From contig OX460916.1 in assembly GCA_949788275.1 (NCBI GenBank), forward strand, positions 930,001-994,000: DNA of 64,000 bases. The letters are read 5' to 3'. Of the stretch, positions 5,196 through 62,766 are shown in pieces. The position numbers were made by a program, and so were the translations under genes. This DNA is from Weeksellaceae bacterium. GTDB taxonomy: Bacteria > Bacteroidota > Bacteroidia > Flavobacteriales > Weeksellaceae. The notes below the pieces were generated by a model. It searched no databases. It saw only the letters and a program-made list of their open reading frames with translations, and was not told the DNA's origin. Each line of letters starts with the position of its first letter. Positions within the stretch are counted from its first letter, which is position 1.

Positions 5196-5222
5196 AAACG
5201 GTTTTTATAACGCTTTTTCACT

Positions 5223-5349
5223 TTGGGCGCCCCTTCGACTTGGTGTTTTGATCAACACCAAGTCGAAGGTCGGGCTTTCCGCACTCGCTTTTTGGTGTCG
5301 CTTCGCTCTGCCAAAAAGCTCAAACAAATGCTTCAATCCCTCGCGCAAA
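5223..5349 (-). repeat. Two-hairpin intergenic element, copy A
   Basis: This copy reads in reverse: it begins with TTGGGCG and ends with CAATCCCTCGCGCAAA. It has a long variable hairpin (CCTTCGACTTGGTGTT pairing with AACACCAAGTCGAAGG), the conserved GGGCTTTCCGCACTCG core, and a second hairpin (CTTTTTGG/CCAAAAAG). It lies just downstream of the LytTR regulator. The open frame crossing it (5248-5484) is an artefact. Confidence 0.85.
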
Positions 5350-5467
5350 TCCGTTTTTAATTTAGAACACAGGAAAGGAATTTCCGAAGATCATAGGAGA
5401 ATTTTCAGTTCGTATAGTCCGATGTTTTTAGCGGTCATTCCCCCGTTCAAATTGTTCTGTTTTAAGA

Positions 5468-11576: not shown

Positions 11577-11703
11577 TTGGGCAGTCCCTTCGGGCCGCGC
11601 TATACGCTATATCTTTTTGGATGGTAGTTGAAGGTGGGGCTACGATGTAGCCCATGAAGCTCGAGGAATCCAAAAAAGGATGCCGCTGCTATCGCTACTG
11701 CGC
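11577..11703 (-). repeat. Two-hairpin intergenic element, copy C
   Basis: Reverse copy between convergent gltS and the small minus-strand gene at 11826. Read on the minus strand it has GATAGCAGCGGCATCC, a variable stem (CTTTTTTGGAT with ATCCAAAAAG) enclosing a long copy-specific loop, the ATATAGCGTATAGC core, and a short GGCCCGAAGGG hairpin near the end. Confidence 0.8.
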
Positions 11704-11825
11704 ATCCGGTTAAAAAAAAGAACTTAAGTGGCCAAATGCTGTGGTGTTGTGTTCTAAACCCATCGCTTAAGAATAGGCTTCCAAACTAGGAATAACATCA
11801 TTGATTTTTGTGTTTTTACGGACGA

Positions 11826-18513: not shown

Positions 18514-18534
18514 GAACGTCTAAGTACTATACAT

Positions 18535-18658
18535 TTTGGGCGTGCCCTTTGCTTGTTGTCTTCGTCAACAACAAGCAAAGGTCGGGCTTTCCGCACTCGC
18601 TTTCGGTTCCGTTCCACTTCACCCAAAGCTCAAACAAATGCTTCAATCCCTCACGCAA
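18535..18658 (-). repeat. Two-hairpin intergenic element, copy D
   Basis: Reverse copy after the acyltransferase gene. The long hairpin is CCTTTGCTTGTTG pairing with CAACAAGCAAAGG. It differs from copy H (CCTTTACTTGTTG/CAACAAGTAAAGG) by one base pair changed on both arms. The GGGCTTTCCGCACTCGC core, a short second hairpin (CTTT/AAAG) and the CAATCCCTCACGCAA end follow. Confidence 0.85.
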
Positions 18659-18719
18659 AATAAGTTGTCGTTCTAAGAAGTCTTTAGAAAGATGCGATGT
18701 CAAATAAAGACCTTCAGCG

Positions 18720-19682: not shown

Positions 19683-19812
19683 ATTGGACAATAAGGGAAT
19701 TAGCTGTTGTAGGCACCTAGTTCTAAATGAACACTTTTTTAGGCAGCATTGGTTGAAAAACTTCCATTGATTGACAACCGTCTTTTATGTGTTTGAAGGA
19801 CCGTAGCGTTTT

Positions 19813-19923
19813 GCGGCAGGGATAGTAGCGGCATCCTTTGCTGCCACCTCTATATTGAATTCAACCGCAAAGCTTTTGCAGCAAAGATATAGCGCATAGC
19901 CCGGCGCGTAGCGGCCGCCCAAA
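19813..19923 (+). repeat. Two-hairpin intergenic element, copy E
   Basis: Forward copy between the convergent GNAT gene and the DUF1573 gene. GCGGCAGGGATAGTAGCGG is followed by hairpin 1 (CTTTGCTGC/GCAGCAAAG, long AT-rich loop), GATATAGCGCATAGCCCG, a short hairpin with arms CGC/GCG, and the end CGCCCAAA. Confidence 0.85.
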
Positions 19924-43408: not shown

Positions 43409-43428
43409 AGCTCCGTATGGTAGGATTT

Positions 43429-43540
43429 GCGCTAAGGATAGCAGCGATATCCTTTGTTGGGTTCTTCCGTTTCCCTTATTGCCCTTATTTCAAACCCAAC
43501 AAAGATTTAGCGGATAGCCTGACCCGTAGGGGGAGCGCCA
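43429..43540 (+). repeat. Two-hairpin intergenic element, copy G
   Basis: Forward copy: GCGCTAAGGATAGCAGCG, hairpin 1 (TTTGTTGGGTT/AACCCAACAAA, pyrimidine-rich loop), GATTTAGCGGATAGCCTG, a short second hairpin (CCC/GGG around CGTA), and the end GCGCC. It is followed 41 bases later by copy H in the opposite orientation. Confidence 0.85.
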
Positions 43541-43580
43541 TTATAAAAAATCATAGAACGATTTTTTACGCGCAAGAATG

Positions 43581-43706
43581 TTTTGGGCGTTCCCTTTACT
43601 TGTTGTCTTCGTCAACAACAAGTAAAGGGCGGGCTTTTCGCACTCGCTTTTGGTTCCGTTTCCCTCCACCAAAAGCTCAAACAGATGCTTCAATCCCTAA
43701 CGCAAA
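43581..43706 (-). repeat. Two-hairpin intergenic element, copy H
   Basis: Reverse copy: TTTTGGGCGTT, long hairpin CCCTTTACTTGTTG/CAACAAGTAAAGGG, the GCGGGCTTTTCGCACTCGC core, second hairpin CTTTTGG/CCAAAAG, and the end CAATCCCTAACGCAA. From 43629 to 43704 it matches copy I (51803-51923) at 75 of 76 positions, yet its long hairpin has different arms. Confidence 0.88.
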
Positions 43707-44626
43707 TTCGGTTTAAGAATTCCGTTTAAGATTGCAGAAGAAAAAGTCTTTTCTTTCTTTTTCTCCAGTGGCTGACAACCAGTAAATACAATAATCATGG
43801 TCATACTTCCTAAGATACCAACAGGACTATTAATGATGCTTTTTCCATCAATCACAATAAGTGTTAATATGGGAACTGTAGCATTGAAACTGCCATGAAA
43901 GAGGGTGGGTGCGATAACCGATTTCGTTATTTCGCGAATATAATTAAACAAGAAGGAGCTAACGATGCAAAACAAAATCATAAGAATTCCACCTAATAAA
44001 TGATTTTCTTTTAAGCTATGGCCTTTTAGAATGATAGGAAAATGCCATAATCCCCATATAAAACCTATAAAAATTGAACGACGAAATCGTCCTAACTCTT
44101 CATTGTGTTTAAACAAGTAACCACGCCATCCCAATTCTTCACCCAAGGCGGCTGGGAAATTAACAATTGCCCCCATATAAGCTGCGAATAAAATAAGAGG
44201 TATGAGTATGTAATCAAAATGGGGCGGAAGATCATTAATTTCATGACCCGATTGACCACTTAATTCGTTGAAACGGACAATTAGCTCTGCTTCATTTAAG
44301 CTCATTCTACCTACCCCATTCAAATGAAATAGGTTTCCAAATAGATAAACCAAAGTTAAAAACGTACATACGAAAAAAACGGTAATTAACGGTACAGAAA
44401 TTAGGAGTCTAATAGATTTTCGTGGAACGCGAAAATAAGAGACCAGCGTTTTCCGGTTAAACTTCTCGAGTATAAGCGTTGCTACTAAGGGACCAGCCAT
44501 ATACCAAGTACCGATAATGAAAACGGTCATTAGTGGGTTTGAAACGCCATTTAACACCAGAAGACTCGACCAGCTAAATGTGTAAGCCAATAAGATAAAT
44601 ACTACATTCTTTCGTTTTAAAAGCAT
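43697..44626 (-). CDS. CPBP-family intramembrane glutamic protease
   Basis: This 309-residue multi-pass protein has the Rce1/CPBP motifs: motif 1 EELGWRGYLF, motif 2 FIWGLWHFPII and motif 3 LFHGSFNATV. The pair of Glu and the His residues form the active site. Such proteases process prenylated or bacteriocin-like peptides, or give immunity to them. The substrate here is unknown. It is a single gene whose last few bases overlap the edge of repeat copy H, so the gene's 3' end and the element are adjoining. Confidence 0.9.
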   Translation of the reverse strand: MLLKRKNVVFILLAYTFSWSSLLVLNGVSNPLMTVFIIGTWYMAGPLVATLILEKFNRKTLVSYFRVPRKSIRLLISVPLITVFFVCTFLTLVYLFGNLFHLNGVGRMSLNEAELIVRFNELSGQSGHEINDLPPHFDYILIPLILFAAYMGAIVNFPAALGEELGWRGYLFKHNEELGRFRRSIFIGFIWGLWHFPIILKGHSLKENHLLGGILMILFCIVSSFLFNYIREITKSVIAPTLFHGSFNATVPILTLIVIDGKSIINSPVGILGSMTMIIVFTGCQPLEKKKEKTFSSAILNGILKPNLR

Positions 44627-44745
44627 AAAGCAAATTTTAATGCATCATGGCTTTTGTAGGTTAAAGTGTTGTTAGTGAGTGACTAATTTATGTAATTTTA
44701 ATGAATTGTTCTGCGTTAATTGCATAAAGGAATCACTTTTTTTTA

Positions 44746-45813
44746 TTAAGGCAGTAGTTTTTTTAAATTATTTGTAATGCTTTCTTTTACAATTGACCCG
44801 TTTTTATAACTCTTTATTGTATACGTGTTGTTGACGTTTTTAGTGATATAAATACCCTCTTGGGGCTTACCCTCTTCATCGTAAATCAGACTCCCAATTA
44901 ACGTCTCTAGGGTATAGGGAACCATAAAAGACTCAAAAACATTCTCTAAACCTTCTGCAGCTTCGGTAGGATTGGAAAGTAATATGTCTAGACGACTCAA
45001 AAATGAATCCATAGGTCCATTAAATTTAAAAGAAAATTGCATAAACAAAGGCATTAAAATATGATCTTTCGAATCTAAATCTTGCCTAGCATTGGATAAC
45101 CAATTCATTTGTTGAAGTTGTTTTTGTTCATCCACGTAATAAATGGTAGAAGACTTAGGGGTAGCTTCCGCAACGTCTGTAAATAAAGGTGTACTGGTTG
45201 CAATCTTTTTCCCATTGCGTAAATAATCAGCGATAACGTACCCATTTTTCTGATAGACTTGTAGTCCATCTCCGGTCTCTAAACTATGTATATGTAAAGA
45301 TTCACCCTCCAATAGCATAGAAATTCTATTAAAATAATGCATTCCAAAAACATCGATGTTTAAACCTTTTTTTTGCCCATTTTTGTAGACGTCTGTCAAT
45401 AACATTTGGTTAGCGACCATGCGGTAATCATTTCCATCCCAAATATTACCGTCGATATAGGTTGTTTTTAATGCATATTCTATCGGTGGTTGGTATTGAT
45501 CTTTAGCAATAAAATCAACCGCATACCTCGTCTTTCGTTTTCCGTCTTCATAGTAATCAACAAAAGGCAATTCGCCTAATAATTTTTCTTTGGTTACTAA
45601 ATAACCGTTGTAAGGCTGTCCATTTTTTATTTCTAATCGATAGGACTTTTGAGGTTTTTCTAAAATTAAAATTTTAGTAGTTTCTTTGAAGTGGGCATTA
45701 ATATCGTTCATAAATTCAACATTGTAAATGGTTGAATTGTCTTGTGCTGAAAGCGCTGGACAAGTGAATAAGCAGGCTAGAATTAAGAAAATAAATACAA
45801 TTTTATGAGACAT
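44746..45813 (-). CDS. Exported protein of unknown function with MORN-like hairpin repeats
   Basis: This 355-residue protein has a signal peptide (IVFIFLILACLFTCPALSAQ). The rest has short beta-hairpin units of the form YxNGxKKG/YEDGKR (VDYYEDGKRKT, VYKNGQKKGLNIDVF, YLRNGKKIATST), like MORN or toxin-antitoxin YwqK-type repeats, and a helical C-terminal part (about 225-300). I recognise no enzyme motif. It is a single gene with a 10-bp direct repeat in its leader. Confidence 0.7.
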   Translation of the reverse strand: MSHKIVFIFLILACLFTCPALSAQDNSTIYNVEFMNDINAHFKETTKILILEKPQKSYRLEIKNGQPYNGYLVTKEKLLGELPFVDYYEDGKRKTRYAVDFIAKDQYQPPIEYALKTTYIDGNIWDGNDYRMVANQMLLTDVYKNGQKKGLNIDVFGMHYFNRISMLLEGESLHIHSLETGDGLQVYQKNGYVIADYLRNGKKIATSTPLFTDVAEATPKSSTIYYVDEQKQLQQMNWLSNARQDLDSKDHILMPLFMQFSFKFNGPMDSFLSRLDILLSNPTEAAEGLENVFESFMVPYTLETLIGSLIYDEEGKPQEGIYITKNVNNTYTIKSYKNGSIVKESITNNLKKLLP

Positions 45814-45817
45814 AATT

Positions 45818-45853
45818 TTGGTTGATGGTTAGTAAGATTAAAATTGGTTGATG
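45818..45853 (-). repeat. 10-bp direct repeat in the leader of the unknown exported protein gene
   Basis: TTGGTTGATG lies at 45818-45827 and 45844-45853 (period 26), just before the minus-strand start codon. A TATATTTG -7 candidate lies further upstream at 45910-45917, so the repeats would be in the transcript leader. Confidence 0.5.
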
Positions 45854-45917
45854 AACACGATGTTTGTTCATTAAATTTTCACGGCATAGAATTGAGGCAT
45901 ACTTTTAGTCAAATATA

Positions 45918-46270
45918 AGATTTTGTTGTCAGCATTTAGTTAAATGAAGGCGGAAGATAGAGGTGGAGCGAAGAGAACATGCGTATACGTCGAACCAATT
46001 ATGTATTCCGTTAAAAATCGATTTTTGTTATAGATAAACCTCTTTTTGTAATTGGTAAAAGGATTGTTTAAAGGGTGGGAAACCTGTGCGTTATCATAGT
46101 ATGTCCACTTATGTAAAAAGATAGTTGTATTTATTTTAAAATAATTGTAATATTGGGACAAGATATTTGGAATTGAATGGATCAATTAAGTTAGATCTTC
46201 AGATTAAAAATCGAAAAAGCACTTATATGAAATACAATACGAAGGTAAAAATAACCATATAAATCAACAT
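45918..46270. other. AT-rich intergenic stretch without a convincing gene
   Basis: Minus-strand codons are open over part of it (45940-46185), but the translation is unlike a protein. On the plus strand I see only a GATATTTG -7-like box near 46160 and a terminator at 46271-46300, which together could frame a short RNA of about 110-130 nt. Confidence 0.4.
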
Positions 46271-46300
46271 AAAGCATCTTATATATAGGATGCTTTTTTT
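46271..46300 (+). terminator. Rho-independent terminator with no coding gene in front
   Basis: AAAGCATC and GATGCTTT pair around an AT-rich loop and are followed by seven T residues. No plus-strand gene ends here. The nearest plus-strand stop lies far upstream, so it may end a small RNA. Confidence 0.7.
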
Positions 46301-46413
46301 ACGTTTAAGCATAGCTGTATTTAATAAAAATACAGAAAAAAGTACATTCTGAGCCTTGGAAAACCATTTCAATGACTTAGGCATAGATAACCATCACACA
46401 TTAATTTTTGCAT

Positions 46414-47886
46414 ATGAAATTGAGCTTTTTCGTCTTTTTGGTAATGATTTTACATCTAAATGGGCAAACTTCGATAGAAAAAAGCATAGACTCTTTGATT
46501 GAACGTTCTACAGATCAATTTGTTGCGGTTCAATTTAAAGAAGCATTGCTAACCACAAACAACGCCTTAAAATTATCAGAAGAGCATCATTATTCAAAAG
46601 GAATTGCAACAGCCAATATTTATATCGCTCGGTTATTACTCGAATTAGGGATTTATAATCGTAGTTTACTATATCTTAAAAATGCAGAAGAGCAACCCTA
46701 TATTAAAAAAGATTTTTTTCTACAAGCTGAGCTTTATCGAATTCGCGGAAGAATTTACGAGAACCTGAAAATGGGCTCACTATCATTGAGAGAATTTCGA
46801 AAACAACTAAGCGTAGCAATTAAAATTAAAAGTGAAAACCGTAAAAATATTTCTAAATTTTGGGCGCATCAAAATATAGCCCAAGTTTTTGAACGAACTC
46901 GTAATCAAGATTCAGTCTTGTTCCATGTTACACAAATGGAAAGTTTATTACCTCATTTTAAGGAAGAGGAAGAACTTTTTTTATTTACAAGCACCTATGT
47001 GAAAATCGCTGAAATGGCTTTTCTCGAAAAGGATTATACACGGTGTAGATTCTATCTCGATAAATCCATGGTATTGTTAGATCGATATCACTCTAATTTT
47101 AAATTCGATATCTTGAAAATCTATGGTGATTTGGAAGCTGAACAAGACCATATAGAAGAAGCAGCCCTGTATTACGAGGAAGCATTCAATAATGCATTGG
47201 CTTTAGATGTGAAAGACCAGGCCAGGTATTTATCTAAAATTGTTGCTGATTATTACCATGACAATCAGCTAGATCCGCTTATTACCAATAAATATCTCTA
47301 TCAATATCAAAGACTTAATGATTCGTTAGAAACTGAAAGTAAACAAGCAACAGAAACTCTCGTGAGTCAAATATTAGATCAAGAGGCCGAAGAATCCACC
47401 AAGCAACAGAATTTTTTTCTCTATTTAATTGCCGGTATAATCGCCATATCGTGTGCTATTATAGGCTTCTTATTTTTAAGCTACCATCGAAAGAAAATCA
47501 GGTATATCTATAAAAATAAGTTGTTGATAAAAGAACAATCCAAAGCAGATGAATTAGCACAACTTACTGATGTAAATACATTCAATGAACTTATCCGAAT
47601 GGCAAAAAAAAATAATCCCGAGTTCTTAATTCTTTTTAAAGAACGCTATCCTACTTTTGTTGCGAATTTAAAAGCCTTAGATCCTAAAGTCCGAAGTAGT
47701 GAATTGGCTTTCTGTGCAATGGCATATCTTAACTTTTCCACCAAAGATATCGCCGAATATACGTTTGTAACAATCCGTGCTGTACAAATTCGTAAAAATA
47801 GAATGCGAAAGAAATACAGCATTAATTCCAAAGAAGATTTCAATAGCTGGATGCGTAAACTTGGTGATGAAACAATTCATAATTAG
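46414..47886 (+). CDS. Membrane-bound TPR regulator with C-terminal helix-turn-helix (second copy of this architecture)
   Basis: This protein of about 490 residues has a signal peptide (MKLSFFVFLVMILHLNGQ), periplasmic TPR helices (about 30-310; TANIYIARLLLELGIYNRSL), one transmembrane helix at about 333-355 (FFLYLIAGIIAISCAIIGFL), a linker, and a cytoplasmic HTH at about 422-475 (SELAFCAMAYLNFSTKDIAE, TFVTIRAVQIRKNRMRKK). The ATG at 46414 is used instead of the TTG two codons earlier. It resembles the 28321 protein in design but is clearly diverged. It may regulate the exported-protein genes that follow at 48659. Confidence 0.87.
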   Translation: MKLSFFVFLVMILHLNGQTSIEKSIDSLIERSTDQFVAVQFKEALLTTNNALKLSEEHHYSKGIATANIYIARLLLELGIYNRSLLYLKNAEEQPYIKKDFFLQAELYRIRGRIYENLKMGSLSLREFRKQLSVAIKIKSENRKNISKFWAHQNIAQVFERTRNQDSVLFHVTQMESLLPHFKEEEELFLFTSTYVKIAEMAFLEKDYTRCRFYLDKSMVLLDRYHSNFKFDILKIYGDLEAEQDHIEEAALYYEEAFNNALALDVKDQARYLSKIVADYYHDNQLDPLITNKYLYQYQRLNDSLETESKQATETLVSQILDQEAEESTKQQNFFLYLIAGIIAISCAIIGFLFLSYHRKKIRYIYKNKLLIKEQSKADELAQLTDVNTFNELIRMAKKNNPEFLILFKERYPTFVANLKALDPKVRSSELAFCAMAYLNFSTKDIAEYTFVTIRAVQIRKNRMRKKYSINSKEDFNSWMRKLGDETIHN

Positions 47887-48265
47887 GGAAGTATTTTAAT
47901 TTTAAACCAAAATAAAAAAACGCATTTAAGTATTATTGTTTTATCCGATTTAGCGCATTTTAAATTTTCACGAAAATACTTTGTTTTATTTATATGTCAA
48001 TAATGTATAATAGAATTAATTTCTATTAACCGTCACATCCTTAAAATATATTTTCGAAACCTTTCTAAGAAATATTTCTTGTTTTTTTTACCCCATTCAA
48101 TTTATTTTAAGCATCTGTTTTGCCCATTTTTCATCCGATTTTGAATTTAATTTAGATGAGTCGTCGACTAAATTGAGTCTTAAATAGTTGTTATATAGTA
48201 ACTTGAAAAATGTGATAGGCGTGTGATACCGCTGTTTTGGGATGGTTATAAAAAAAAATTAAAGA
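47887..48265. other. AT-rich intergenic region upstream of a strong promoter
   Basis: No coding frame or clear hairpin-plus-T-run is visible. The stretch separates the TPR-HTH regulator from the promoter at 48266. Confidence 0.4.
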
Positions 48266-48296
48266 TTTGTCGCTGTAAGAAGAGTTGTTATATTTG
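48266..48296 (+). promoter_or_regulatory. Strong Bacteroidota-type promoter (TTTG-N19-TATATTTG)
   Basis: TTTG at 48266-48269 and a perfect -7 box TATATTTG at 48289-48296 with a 19-base spacer. This is one of the two best promoter matches in the window (the other is at 53401). The predicted transcript begins near 48303 and therefore carries an unusually long leader of about 355 bases before the first gene at 48659. Confidence 0.7.
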
Positions 48297-48302
48297 CAGC
48301 CG

Positions 48303-48658
48303 CTAATTTATTTAATCTAGATTTTTTTATTTGTTTTTTAATTAAATGAATAAGTAGGGATTGAAAATTATATAAAGTAACCTAAGTATTATTGTGTAAC
48401 TGTATTTTACATATAGAAAAGCTCCTTTTTAAAGTAACACCAAAATTTAATTAACCTTTGTATACACTCATGAAAATTCATCATTTTTCCATTTACCTTT
48501 CCTATAGGAATTTTAATCAAATAACGCAAATAGGGAACGGGAATAGTAAATCTTTATTCTTTAATCATACCAAGTCTTTTGTGCCTAACTCGTTAGAAGA
48601 TTCTGTTTTCGTTCTATGCACAAAGCATCATCCTCAATTAATCTTAATGTAAACTAAT
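48303..48658 (+). other. Long 5' leader of the surface-protein module
   Basis: About 355 bases lie between the predicted transcription start and the next clear gene. A 64-codon frame (48458-48652, internal ATG at 48470) lies in it and ends 6 bases before the next gene, but its sequence has no features of a known protein. It could be a leader peptide or part of a structured regulatory RNA. Confidence 0.4.
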
Positions 48659-50380
48659 ATGAAAATCTATATTTACTTTTTAATAACCCTGTGTTTAGGC
48701 GTTTCCAGTTTTGCCCAAGGTATTGGTGAATCCTATGTCAGTAGACCTGCTAAGTTTGTTTCGGCAGATAAATCAGCCGAAGTCGGTCAGATGTCTTCTA
48801 TTATGGATGGTGAAGGCCTAACTGGAAATATAGCCAGTCAAAATGGGGAATACCAATTATATTGGCTGCAATCGAATAATCCAGTCACTTTTACCTTTGA
48901 TATGGCTCAATCTTCAAAGATAAATGCCTTTGTATATTATGGCCCGTGGGGATTTAATGAAGGCGCTAGAAATGTCGATGTTTCGTTTTACAGTGGCGTT
49001 AGTCATTTAGGAACAGAGCGGATTGTTTTTCCGAAACGTTATTCAAGCCGACAGGTAGCTAGTTTATCAAAAACCTATGTGAATGTAACGCGTGTATTGG
49101 TTAAAATAATCGATGATTACGAAGATAGCGATGCTAAACGTACATCACTTTCCGAAGTGGCTTTTGGTGATTTCGTTCTAGATCAACCTACCTTAAGTTT
49201 TCAATCGACATTCTGTGCGGCACAAGGAAAGGCCAAGATCACTAATTTTAACCCTTTATTTACCTATTCATTTTCTCCAGCAGGTCCACAAGTAACAGCC
49301 AGTGGCGATATTATTAATTTTGTTGTTGGGGTTACCTATAAAGTTACCGCCAAAAAAGGGGATGAAAGTTCTCCAGCCAGTAATGCATTCACCTTAGACG
49401 ACAATTGTGCCAATTGTACAAAGCCAGCAACGAGCGGTACGCCGACTGGGTTTTCATCGGTGGGCATTACAACCCAATCCAAGCAAGATAATTGGCCAAA
49501 TACCATCCCGAATGGATTTGTCGCTTTAGAATCAAGTGAAAAAGGGCTTGTAATTTCCCGAGTTCAAAATTCAACCAAGATTGTCGAGCCTAAAGAAGGA
49601 ATGATTATCTATGATATAGATGCTAAATGTGTTAAACTATACAACGGTGCTGCATGGAATTGTATTAAAAATACCTGTGGTACCAGTAAACTAACACCAC
49701 GTAATGTACGCATTGGTCATTATGCTGGTTATAGTATTGGCGATAACCAACATCAAACATTCAAGAATCAATTGTTAAACAAGGTGAATTACGGACCAAC
49801 TGGAAAATTTAAAGGCGTAACCGGATTCGATTTTACCAGTATTTCAACACAAAACATCGATAACCTTGATTTAATTAATCAATTTGATATCATCGTTATA
49901 GGCTATGCCAACATTACGGCTTCGAATGTTCTTAAAATAAAACAGTTTGCCGATCAAGGTGGTGCTGTTATGGTATTATTAGATAGTAATTTAAATACAG
50001 GCTTACATCAAGCATTTGGTGGAACAGGAACTGTAACGGCTGGTCAAGTGAATGCCAAAACAAACAATAATGCATTAAATGTGGGACTTTTCGGTGATAG
50101 TCGCAATGTCAATTTAATTGGTATGCAGACCATGGCACGCGTTACGAGTATCCCAAGCGATGCGATTCTGCTGGGAACAGAATCAATTGCAAGTAATAAT
50201 CCTGCAGCATGGATCACTGGATCAAAACAAAATGTATTTTTTGTGTGGGATGAAGGGATCTTTAGACATGGTTCGGTTGCAGGACTTGTCATTGATACAC
50301 CTCAAGAAATTTTTATTCATAATATGATGGCCTATATCTTACAAAGAGCAGGTTTTCAACCCAATGTTCCACTTCAATAA
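48659..50380 (+). CDS. Exported multi-domain surface-type protein (discoidin-like N-terminus)
   Basis: This 573-residue protein has a signal peptide (YIYFLITLCLGVSSFAQG). Domains by eye: a discoidin/F5-8C-like beta-sandwich (about 20-172; STIMDGEGL-like start, TFTFDMAQSSKINAFVYYG, SLSEVAFGDF); an Ig-like segment (about 175-250); a Cys-containing region with EGMIIYDIDAKCVKLYNG and AAWNCI, a pattern I recall in many Chryseobacterium surface proteins; and a C-terminal alpha/beta domain (about 350-573; FDIIVIGYANITASNVLKIK, GGAVMVLLDSNLN) like a GATase/ThuA-type fold. No T9SS signal is seen at the C-terminus. It heads a four-gene run. Confidence 0.75.
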   Translation: MKIYIYFLITLCLGVSSFAQGIGESYVSRPAKFVSADKSAEVGQMSSIMDGEGLTGNIASQNGEYQLYWLQSNNPVTFTFDMAQSSKINAFVYYGPWGFNEGARNVDVSFYSGVSHLGTERIVFPKRYSSRQVASLSKTYVNVTRVLVKIIDDYEDSDAKRTSLSEVAFGDFVLDQPTLSFQSTFCAAQGKAKITNFNPLFTYSFSPAGPQVTASGDIINFVVGVTYKVTAKKGDESSPASNAFTLDDNCANCTKPATSGTPTGFSSVGITTQSKQDNWPNTIPNGFVALESSEKGLVISRVQNSTKIVEPKEGMIIYDIDAKCVKLYNGAAWNCIKNTCGTSKLTPRNVRIGHYAGYSIGDNQHQTFKNQLLNKVNYGPTGKFKGVTGFDFTSISTQNIDNLDLINQFDIIVIGYANITASNVLKIKQFADQGGAVMVLLDSNLNTGLHQAFGGTGTVTAGQVNAKTNNNALNVGLFGDSRNVNLIGMQTMARVTSIPSDAILLGTESIASNNPAAWITGSKQNVFFVWDEGIFRHGSVAGLVIDTPQEIFIHNMMAYILQRAGFQPNVPLQ

Positions 50381-50391
50381 AATTGCACACC

Positions 50392-50910
50392 ATGAAAAAA
50401 TATATCATCTTAAGTCTTTTTTGTAGCCTTGTTTTAAACACTGTTCAAGCACAAGTCGCTATCGGAAAATCATCGATCCAAGGGGTGAGTACCTTAATGG
50501 AATTCGATCAAAAACCAACCAATACCAATGGGATTATATTACCCGCTGTTAAATCTTTACCTACTGTAACGGCTAATGATAACGGTACCTTTTTATTCGA
50601 CAGAGCTTCGAAGAAAGTAAGAATGTACGAGAATAATCAATGGATTGATTTGTCTGAAAATCCTGGTGATACCAGTCAATTGGTCAACAACTCGACAAAC
50701 GAAATTGGTGGCGGAGTAATCATAGGGGCAGATAAAACGTTAGCAAAAGGGGTTTTGGTCTTAGAATCAGCTAACAAAGCCATGGTTTTACCGCAGATTA
50801 AAGATCCACATTTAACAGTAAAAAACCCATATCCAGGAATGATTTGTTACGATACAACCCTTAAAACAGTAGCCGTTTTTGATGGAATACTGTGGAATTA
50901 TTGGAAATAA
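50392..50910 (+). CDS. Small exported protein of a flavobacterial surface family
   Basis: This 172-residue protein has a signal peptide (YIILSLFCSLVLNTVQAQ). Two similar halves each end in a beta unit with an aromatic cap: NGTFLFDRASKKVRMYENNQ with WIDLSE, and GMICYDTTLKTVAVFDG with ILWNYWK. This pattern recurs in a family I remember from Chryseobacterium. It follows the discoidin-like gene by 11 bases, and the HTH gene starts 2 bases after its stop, so all three are co-transcribed. The start is ATG 50392, not the TTG at 50383. The role is unknown; a structural or adhesive surface subunit is plausible. Confidence 0.72.
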   Translation: MKKYIILSLFCSLVLNTVQAQVAIGKSSIQGVSTLMEFDQKPTNTNGIILPAVKSLPTVTANDNGTFLFDRASKKVRMYENNQWIDLSENPGDTSQLVNNSTNEIGGGVIIGADKTLAKGVLVLESANKAMVLPQIKDPHLTVKNPYPGMICYDTTLKTVAVFDGILWNYWK

Positions 50911-50912
50911 GA

Positions 50913-51335
50913 ATGGAAATTAAGAAAATCCATCTAGGCCAACTCATTCAATTGCGGGTAGAAGAATTAGAGATTGATATTCAACGAATTGAAAAATTCT
51001 TTAAAACATCTGAACAAGCGATTGTTCAGATGTACACTCAACCAAGCTTAGATACGGATGTTTTGCTTAAATGGAGTAAGCTTCTACAATATGATTTTTT
51101 TCGAATTTATTGCCAGCATTTAATTTTGTTTGCACCATTTTCAGAACAAAACAACAAAAAAAATCAACAATCGCAATTACCGGTATATAAGAAGAATCTC
51201 TATACAAAAGAGTTAATTGATTTTGTGTTAACACAAATTAATACAGGTAAGAAAACGAAGTCAGAGGTGATTATTGACTACAGAATCCCAAAGACAACCC
51301 TCTATAAGTGGATCAATAAATACAAAAAAATATAA
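50913..51335 (+). CDS. Small protein with C-terminal transposase-like helix-turn-helix
   Basis: This 140-residue protein has an N-terminal helical domain (MEIKKIHLGQLIQLRVEELE, FKTSEQAIVQMY, LDTDVLLKWSKLLQYDFF) that resembles a HigB/XRE-like or anti-sigma-type bundle. The C-terminal HTH (KSEVIIDYRIPKTTLYKWIN, KYKKI) is of the IS3 OrfA/HTH_29 kind, but no transposase catalytic region follows. The ATG at 50913, 2 bases after the preceding stop, is a better start than the in-frame ATG at 50892 inside the upstream gene. I infer a local transcription factor. Confidence 0.68.
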   Translation: MEIKKIHLGQLIQLRVEELEIDIQRIEKFFKTSEQAIVQMYTQPSLDTDVLLKWSKLLQYDFFRIYCQHLILFAPFSEQNNKKNQQSQLPVYKKNLYTKELIDFVLTQINTGKKTKSEVIIDYRIPKTTLYKWINKYKKI

Positions 51336-51444
51336 TTGAATGCTGTCACAAACCACGTTCAATAAAATAATTTAACACCAACTTAAACCTATTTATTTTA
51401 ACTACCAATCAATAATGATTGGTGGTTTTTTCAAATAATATAAA

Positions 51445-51765
51445 ATGGATAGACCAAATTATCATCAAATATACTTAGACATTATTCATGAATTATGTCC
51501 ACATCAGCTCGAAAAATACTCCCGGTTTTTCTTAAAAAGTAACCTGACCTATTTTGAGGTAATTGCCCTCAACGATCTTATATTTAATCCTCTAAATGAT
51601 GAGAATACTACAGAAAATCAAAAGTTTAAAGCCTACCATAAAGACACTATCTTTACCGTACTCAACTATCAAAAACTAAACAACATAAGCAATTCTAAGC
51701 TATCTCGCGATTTTAACATTAGTAGAAATACCATTGCAAAATGGAAAAAACATTACATACCTTAA
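51445..51765 (+). CDS. Small helix-turn-helix protein of a Chryseobacterium-type family
   Basis: This 106-residue protein begins MDRPNYHQIYLDIIHELCPH and ends in an HTH with SNSKLSRDFNISRNTIAKWK. The ending is the same kind of HTH as in the 50913 gene. I recall this family (starting near 'NYxRIYxDIL' and ending 'RNTVxKWK') as frequent in Chryseobacterium, located next to surface-protein genes. No transposase catalytic motif is present. A short AT-rich hairpin region (ACCAATCA/TGATTGGT, 51403-51424) separates it from the previous gene. Confidence 0.7.
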   Translation: MDRPNYHQIYLDIIHELCPHQLEKYSRFFLKSNLTYFEVIALNDLIFNPLNDENTTENQKFKAYHKDTIFTVLNYQKLNNISNSKLSRDFNISRNTIAKWKKHYIP

Positions 51766-51802
51766 ATTCTATACCTTACTTATACGTTTAAGTATTGTAT
51801 TA

Positions 51803-51923
51803 GGGGCGTTCCGTGTCTTTGTTGTTGATAGCAACAACAAAGACACGGCGGGCTTTCCGCACTCGCTTTTGGTTCCGTTTCCCTCCACCAAAAGCTCAAA
51901 CAGATGCTTCAATCCCTAACGCA
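51803..51923 (-). repeat. Two-hairpin intergenic element, copy I
   Basis: Reverse copy: GGGGCGTT, hairpin CCGTGTCTTTGTTGTT/AACAACAAAGACACGG (6-base loop), GCGGGCTTTCCGCACTCGC, second hairpin CTTTTGG/CCAAAAG, and the end CAATCCCTAACGCA. The right part matches copy H at 75 of 76 bases, but only the loop-proximal TTGTTG of the long hairpin is shared. Confidence 0.88.
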
Positions 51924-53221: not shown

Positions 53222-53242
53222 TTTCTAAATTTTCCCGTGAGT

Positions 53243-53326
53243 GCGCTAGGGATTGCAATGGATATCCTTTTGGTGAGGCGATTAGCCTCATCAAAAGATT
53301 GGAATGGAAAGCCCGTTAAAGCGCCC
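53243..53326 (+). repeat. Two-hairpin intergenic element, copy J
   Basis: Forward and shortest intact copy: GCGCTAGGGATTGCAATGG, hairpin 1 TTTTGGTGAGGC/GCCTCATCAAAA, AGATTGGAATGGAAAGCCCG, end GCGCCC. The one non-Watson-Crick pair in the stem is G-T, which would be a G-U pair if the forward strand is transcribed. Confidence 0.85.
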
Positions 53327-60570: not shown

Positions 60571-60950
60571 TGCAAAATGAGTGCGTATCTTATTGTTATT
60601 GAGCAGGTTGTTTTTTCGTTGAATTCGTCTAATCGTGGTTTGAAAGAATGAATAGGTCTGTATGTATCAAACATTGGAAGATCTTTTGTTGATCCTTCGT
60701 GCGCTCGCTGGGTTCATTTTTAGGATAAAATAGTTGTTTAGCTGATAGAATTAGACGCTACCTCAGCATGGTTTAGGAACCATAAACGATTGGAAATAAT
60801 CGTAACCTGATAATCGTGTTTGAAGAATGATGGTGGCCAAATAGGTCCAATTGAAGGAGGCAAGGAAATCGCTTGAAGAAAGGTGTAAAGAATAAGTGTG
60901 TTTGTATATTTTAAAAGCATCGTCCATTTTTACAGAATAGCCCGAATGTT
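60571..60950. other. Intergenic stretch with overlapping minus-strand open frames, no recognised gene
   Basis: Two overlapping minus-strand frames (60738-60920 and 60763-60957) encode peptides with weak hydrophobic patches. Neither has a promoter, a typical start context or a recognisable family. It may hold a decayed gene. Confidence 0.35.
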
Positions 60951-61064
60951 GCGCCAAGGATTGCAGTGGAAATCCTTGGCAACACTTCCGTTTTTTCCAT
61001 TGGAATATCTTCTTCTTGTTGCCAAGATTGGGAACGGAAAGCCTGACCCGTTAGGGAGGCGCCC
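60951..61064 (+). repeat. Two-hairpin intergenic element, copy K
   Basis: Forward copy: GCGCCAAGGATTGCAGTGG, hairpin 1 TTGGCAACA/TGTTGCCAA around a pyrimidine-rich loop, AGATTGGGAACGGAAAGCC, short hairpin CCC/GGG around GTTA, end GGCGCCC. It lies directly downstream of the small minus-strand membrane-protein gene. Confidence 0.85.
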
Positions 61065-62642: not shown

Positions 62643-62766
62643 TGGGCGCAACCATGTTGTGTTGTTTCATCAACAACACAACATGGTCGGGCTTTTCGCA
62701 CTCGCTTTTTAGTTCCGTTTCACTCCACCAAAAAGCTTAAACAAATGCTACAATCCCTTGCGCAAA
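62643..62766 (-). repeat. Two-hairpin intergenic element, copy L
   Basis: Reverse copy: TGGGCG, hairpin ACCATGTTGTGTTGTT/AACAACACAACATGGT with a short TCATC-like loop, GGGCTTTTCGCACTCGC, second hairpin CTTTTT/AAAAAG, and the end ATGCTACAATCCCTTGCGCAAA. Confidence 0.88.

Follow-up and report, generated by a model that had tools for sequence, protein, structure and literature searches.

The analysed window, a stretch of 64,000 nucleotides (nt) from the assembly of a Weeksellaceae bacterium (GCA_949788275.1, contig OX460916.1, positions 930,001 to 994,000), carries two short elements, called here copies H and I, that are almost identical in one part and unlike in an adjacent hairpin. This work reveals that H and I are not a special pair but two copies of a non-coding folded repeat of ∼120 nt (the H-type repeat), an offshoot of the Flavo-1 family (Rfam RF01705) that is specific to this species. 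Four features of this repeat are new here: its orientation with replication, the near-identity of same-strand neighbours, a stem covariation that avoids G-T pairs, and a decoupling of the hairpin from the core among close copies. To account for them, we favour, as having about an even chance of being right, local copying of the element as single-stranded DNA coupled to the replication fork, together with a turnover of the hairpin at the DNA level, over a dedicated diversification process.

Copy H (window positions 43585–43704, forward strand, as for all features below unless stated) reads GGGCGTT ... AACGCA and points to the inferred terminus; the T-rich flank at 43581–43584 lies outside the element. 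The 5′ strand of its stem P1 (GCGTT, 43587–43591) pairs with AACGC at 43699–43703 and is followed by hairpin 2, a perfect 15-bp stem (CCCTTTACTTGTTGT-CTTCGTCA-ACAACAAGTAAAGGG, loop CTTCGTCA) with arms at 43592–43606 and 43615–43629. The conserved 76-nt core downstream (43629–43704) holds the family tag GGGCTTTYCGCACTCGCTTTT, hairpin 1 (GCTTTTGG...CCAAAAGC, 43646–43676) and a tail. Copy I (51803–51923) is built alike, with GCGTT of P1 at 51806–51810 pairing with 51918–51922, a perfect 17-bp hairpin 2 (CCGTGTCTTTGTTGTTG-ATAG-CAACAACAAAGACACGG, loop ATAG; arms at 51811–51827 and 51832–51848) and the core at 51848–51923. The two cores, running from GCGGGCTTT to TAACGCA, are the same at 75 of 76 bases, as an earlier note on this DNA had claimed, the exception being T (43638) in H versus C (51857) in I. 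The note had also held that the hairpin arms share only TTGTTG; they do differ, but this was slightly overstated, as 9 of 13 registered pairs are the same, four are changed on both arms and none on one arm only. Registered from the outer end, the four differences all fall within the outer eight pairs, and the hairpins are also unlike in loop and stem length. The automatic arm comparison slips register for some pairs; results from it are cited, or were checked by eye, for H-I and H-L023 alone. As single-stranded DNA, H and I adopt the same fold, with z-scores of −5.4 and −6.9 and none of 200 shuffles as good. Since, in addition, the core motif with its exact tag occurs 87 times in the genome against six for the reversed pattern, this structure is not a product of chance.

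Hairpin 2 and the core have different histories. In the set of 22 copies that have a long hairpin and are nearest to H, the distance between two hairpins does not follow the distance between their cores (r = 0.06). A Mantel test between segments of these copies reveals that only base-paired segments correlate, namely the two hairpin arms (r = 0.83), and the 5′ strand of P1 with the tail in which its 3′ strand lies (0.63). The contrast is marked in single pairs: L030 and L043 differ at 1/73 core but 14/39 hairpin positions, L034 and L046 at 2/75 and 13/39, and the pair with L032 at 1/75 and 4/37. The first reading of H and I is thus supported in part, in that the hairpin changes far faster than its flank with both arms moving together, here among paralogous copies. 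As for its other part, a wholesale exchange of the arm, the sister hairpins do not call for it: one arm position (CCCTTT[A/G/C/T]C) is A in H, G in L022, C in L023 and T in L028, each compensated on the opposite arm. Since one pair takes all four states in this way, change does occur pair by pair; whole-arm replacement is possible, yet not required.

A DNA search yields 40 H-type copies in the genome of origin. The exact-tag core pattern is absent from 13 congeners, and a shorter tag, allowing up to one mismatch, is found 82 times in this genome and never across 319 further genomes from the same family. Copies usually follow closely on the stop of a gene, in many cases directly after the T-run of a terminator. 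At the flanks of H, no DNA is in common with 14 congeners, whose distance is attested by their orthologues (68–74% for DUF808 and 73–85% for BioB at the amino acid level). Read on the reverse strand, the repeat has the architecture of Flavo-1, in the order P1 (GCGNN/NNCGC), A, P2 (GGG/CCC), A, P3, spacer, P4, hairpin 1, spacer and short hairpin 2. The likeness extends to P3 (T[AT]/[AT]A), P4 (G[CT]), the GGA/GAA spacer after hairpin 1 and an intergenic habit. Indeed, one regular grammar of P1–P4 and hairpins parses both classic Flavo-1 and H-type copies. Since H and I match the Flavo-1 model neither at the Rfam gathering score (42 bits) nor at E ≤ 1 (the best for the H-type copy L053 being only 22 bits), we file them as an offshoot and not as members by the Rfam rule. 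Intermediate copies nevertheless score as Flavo-1, namely L092 and G013:C28:156481-156563, and the G013 congener copy reaches 49.9 bits with the same GGGCGTTCCCTTCGGGCGGGC end as the H-type repeats. What sets the H-type apart is its hairpin-1 module GCACTCGCTTTTGG, an often long hairpin 2, its fork orientation and its restriction to one species. Beyond the H-type family, at least 150 Flavo-1 matches are present in this genome, versus 4–22 in congeners.

The orientation of the copies follows replication. In the cumulative GC skew, drawn from 40 samples of 10 kb, the maximum (terminus) lies at 0.96–1.13 Mb and the minimum (origin) at 2.63–2.8 Mb. The H strand, which is the lagging-strand-template sequence, reads toward the skew maximum in 67 of the 87 copies (p = 4e-7). 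When switch points are fitted from orientation alone, they fall at 1104–1121 and 2734–2820 kb, in agreement with the skew terminus and origin, a result reached in 0/5000 permutations. The bias holds in the copies left out of hypothesis formation (33/47, p = 0.008) and is absent from the classic Flavo-1 control (75/149). It is not inherited from genes, because it is kept by 6/7 copies lying against both flanking genes and by 10/13 between convergent genes. The terminus half is mildly enriched (54/87, p = 0.03); a strong clustering near the terminus (36/41) was discarded as largely an ascertainment effect of selecting by similarity to H.

Near-identical cores are mostly neighbours. Cores at most one base apart make up 7/32 of the pairs within 14.5 kb versus 3/3289 of those beyond, and among the near pairs they are found in 7/20 on the same strand versus 0/12 on opposite strands (p = 0.029). 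Their downstream flanks are common in some cases (25/25 for L299-L300) and their upstream flanks are unrelated, so that it is mostly the element itself, and not a larger segment, that was copied or locally homogenised. Given this concentration in same-strand neighbours, the near-identity of the H and I cores may itself be a recent product of copying or conversion at short range. The main rival account of the H-I pattern is gene conversion between neighbouring direct repeats, which would homogenise the 76-nt cores and leave the hairpins as older blocks uncrossed by the tracts, with no hairpin-specific process. We consider it somewhat unlikely, even if it accounts for the proximity of near-identical cores and for the mosaic-like independence of all segments that are not base-paired. 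Also in its favour, H's hairpin is closest to that of the copy at 18534–18659, from which it differs by one compensated pair (A-T to G-C), but its core is not (8/73 different). On the other hand, conversion leaves the fork orientation unexplained, inverted repeats can convert too although none of the 12 opposite-strand neighbour pairs is homogenised, a 76-nt tract is short, and no donor for I's hairpin exists among the 30 long hairpins (best 9/40 different).

The stems are almost strictly paired. Over ∼99 copies, the 1188 cells of P1–P4 comprise 1173 Watson-Crick pairs, 3 G-T, 0 A-C and 12 other combinations, with single positions carrying C-G/G-C/T-A or A-T/T-A at near-equal counts. The hairpin-1 arms of classic Flavo-1 behave similarly (626 Watson-Crick, 3 G-T, 3 mismatches), as do those of hairpin 2 in 30 H-type copies with a long hairpin (347/360 Watson-Crick, 1 G-T, 3 A-C, 9 other); as it was the core sequence that served to find these copies, the latter count is free of covariance-model bias. 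RNA stems are expected to tolerate G-U better than A-C, and the acceptor and T stems of 14 tRNAs from fetched loci gave 156 Watson-Crick pairs, 10 G-T and 2 other. Unlike this expectation, H-type and Flavo-1 stems do not favour G-T over A-C. These counts bear on the view that every copy is a structured RNA with a function, as Flavo-1 is catalogued, shaped by fast compensatory mutation under selection. Such a view agrees with the strong covariation of every stem and with the literature: Rfam lists Flavo-1 as a small RNA (sRNA), it was judged to be a probable RNA in Weinberg 2010, and it is counted among the most abundant bacterial sRNA families, without known function. However, G-T intermediates are nearly absent even where C-G and T-A states coexist at a single pair, in the F. 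psychrophilum transcriptome Flavo-1 occurs in sense as well as antisense orientation relative to transcripts and often falls outside any transcript, and fork orientation is not predicted. We thus think it improbable that the repeats are RNA genes.

Orientation could alternatively be selected and not arise from the mode of insertion, if the repeat were a polar chromosome site such as a fork-pause or segregation mark. The bias toward the terminus and the mild enrichment of the terminus half are in line with this, but the repeat occurs in one species of 320, its flanks and subtypes are heterogeneous, 23% of the copies are reversed, and near-identical neighbours suggest recent spread and not ancient placement, which makes such a role very unlikely. 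Finally, the dedicated machinery rewriting hairpin arms that the earlier note had entertained might produce hairpins 13–14/39 different beside cores 1–2/∼75 different in several pairs, yet hardly any likelihood is left to it, since no candidate or other sign of machinery was seen, sister hairpins are set apart by one compensated pair at a time, with all four states represented, and short-hairpin copies mostly retain the same hairpin.

In the explanation that we favour, fork-coupled copying with hairpin turnover, the element would spread when it is exposed as a single strand in the lagging-strand template, being copied or inserted by a putative trans-acting enzyme and often landing nearby on the same replichore. 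Its stems would be read or maintained as DNA. Hairpin 2 may turn over through template-switch correction of a quasi-palindrome and through hairpin exchange between copies, the latter being an equal contender as the source of the change; we propose that its arms therefore stay complementary while their sequence drifts. On this view, H and I, which differ in hairpin 2, would either have arisen by recent copying at short range or have been homogenised in the core. There is precedent for both components. The orientation of IS200/IS605 elements follows replication, as they transpose as single strands (PMC5371812), and H-type copies resemble them and the TnpA_REP/REP (repetitive extragenic palindrome) system in being fork-oriented, intergenic, numerous and folded into single-strand-like hairpins. 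They are unlike both in that they have no adjacent Y1 transposase and form a ∼120-nt multi-stem element, and their ends, which start with GGGCG and finish with CGCA, lack the GT[AG]G tetranucleotide (no GTAG foot). Template switching, for its part, creates and maintains perfect hairpins while changing both arms (PMC8794818; Monttinen and Loytynoja 2022). Similarly, H-type copies keep perfect stems through multi-pair jumps, and hairpin 2 displays concerted two-arm changes with few one-arm intermediates (four versus none between H and I), although the published cases were inferred in RNA genes along phylogenies and those described here lie between paralogous repeats.

Several observations weigh against this explanation. 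No mobilising enzyme was found, and the only Y1 transposase gene of the genome (720185–720529) is not flanked by an H-type element and has no Flavo-1 match within ∼1.4 kb; neither an empty site nor a target duplication was shown for H-type copies. Twenty of the 87 copies are in the wrong orientation. The hairpin-core correlation rises to 0.29 when eight more divergent copies are included (30 in total), and decoupling is therefore claimed for the close 22-copy set only. Regarding the pairing counts, the stem parser selects the best-pairing register, classic copies come from a covariance model that favours good stems, and the tRNA control is small. A bolder view, which we hold to be unlikely, is that Flavo-1 and its H-type offshoot are, as a whole, structure-defined non-autonomous DNA elements and not RNA genes. 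They would multiply at the replication fork through a novel mechanism, and this copying would rewrite one hairpin into a perfect palindrome.

The Y1 gene (L061 1150–2230, genome ∼720 kb) has tandem CCCCTTTAGGGG hairpins on both sides in a REPtron-like arrangement unrelated to Flavo-1. A RAYT/Y1 enzyme was rejected as the cognate mobiliser because the lone Y1 is flanked by these repeats of its own; moreover, 8/14 Flavo-1-bearing congeners have no Y1 match. Six DnaA-like ATPase matches of 248 aa with identical scores (G000:C1 136168, 680537, 766909, 1879285, 2173751 and 2938136) are probably copies of an IS21-type IstB. Four H-type copies (L331, L332, L342 and L345; genome 1818713, 1851165, 2538794 and 3156233) are broken at one tail base, CTTCTATC|TCTTAGG, by an inserted sequence that is identical over the 430 nt read and comprises ∼220 nt of non-coding DNA, after which an IS110-family (DEDD) transposase begins (Pfam PF01548; the partial protein scores 22.5 bits, which is below cut-off). 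From its sequence, the insert looks like an IS110-type element targeting the H-type repeat; relatives of IS110 target REPs.

Two further H-type copies on opposite strands and 865 kb apart (L035 and L036, genome 1588 and 724 kb) have in common an extra downstream hairpin (CTAGTTGGT...ACCAACTAG), followed by partly diverged sequence. In the window, additional H-type copies lie at 5222–5357 (with a CCTTCGACTTGGTGTT hairpin) and 62660–62766, and classic Flavo-1 copies at 11589–11715 (reverse strand), 19811–19910, 43426–43528 (57 bp upstream of H), 53229–53322 and 60935–61052. A 99-aa open reading frame at 43417–43716, which covers copy H and the Flavo-1 copy upstream of it, is almost certainly spurious. 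In congeners, the top-scoring Flavo-1 copies (L068–L087) adjoin contig ends or a 1.3-kb multicopy sequence, presumably ribosomal RNA operons.

To conclude, the scarcity of G-T pairs, the fork-oriented recent expansion and the near-identity of neighbours suggest that at least the H-type offshoot lives at the replication fork in the form of DNA, and hence that relatives of the catalogued 'Flavo-1 RNA' motif behave like DNA elements. If true, this would recast a catalogued RNA family. It would also make this genome, with its scores of copies, a natural test bed for the question of how perfect hairpins keep their complementarity amid sequence change.

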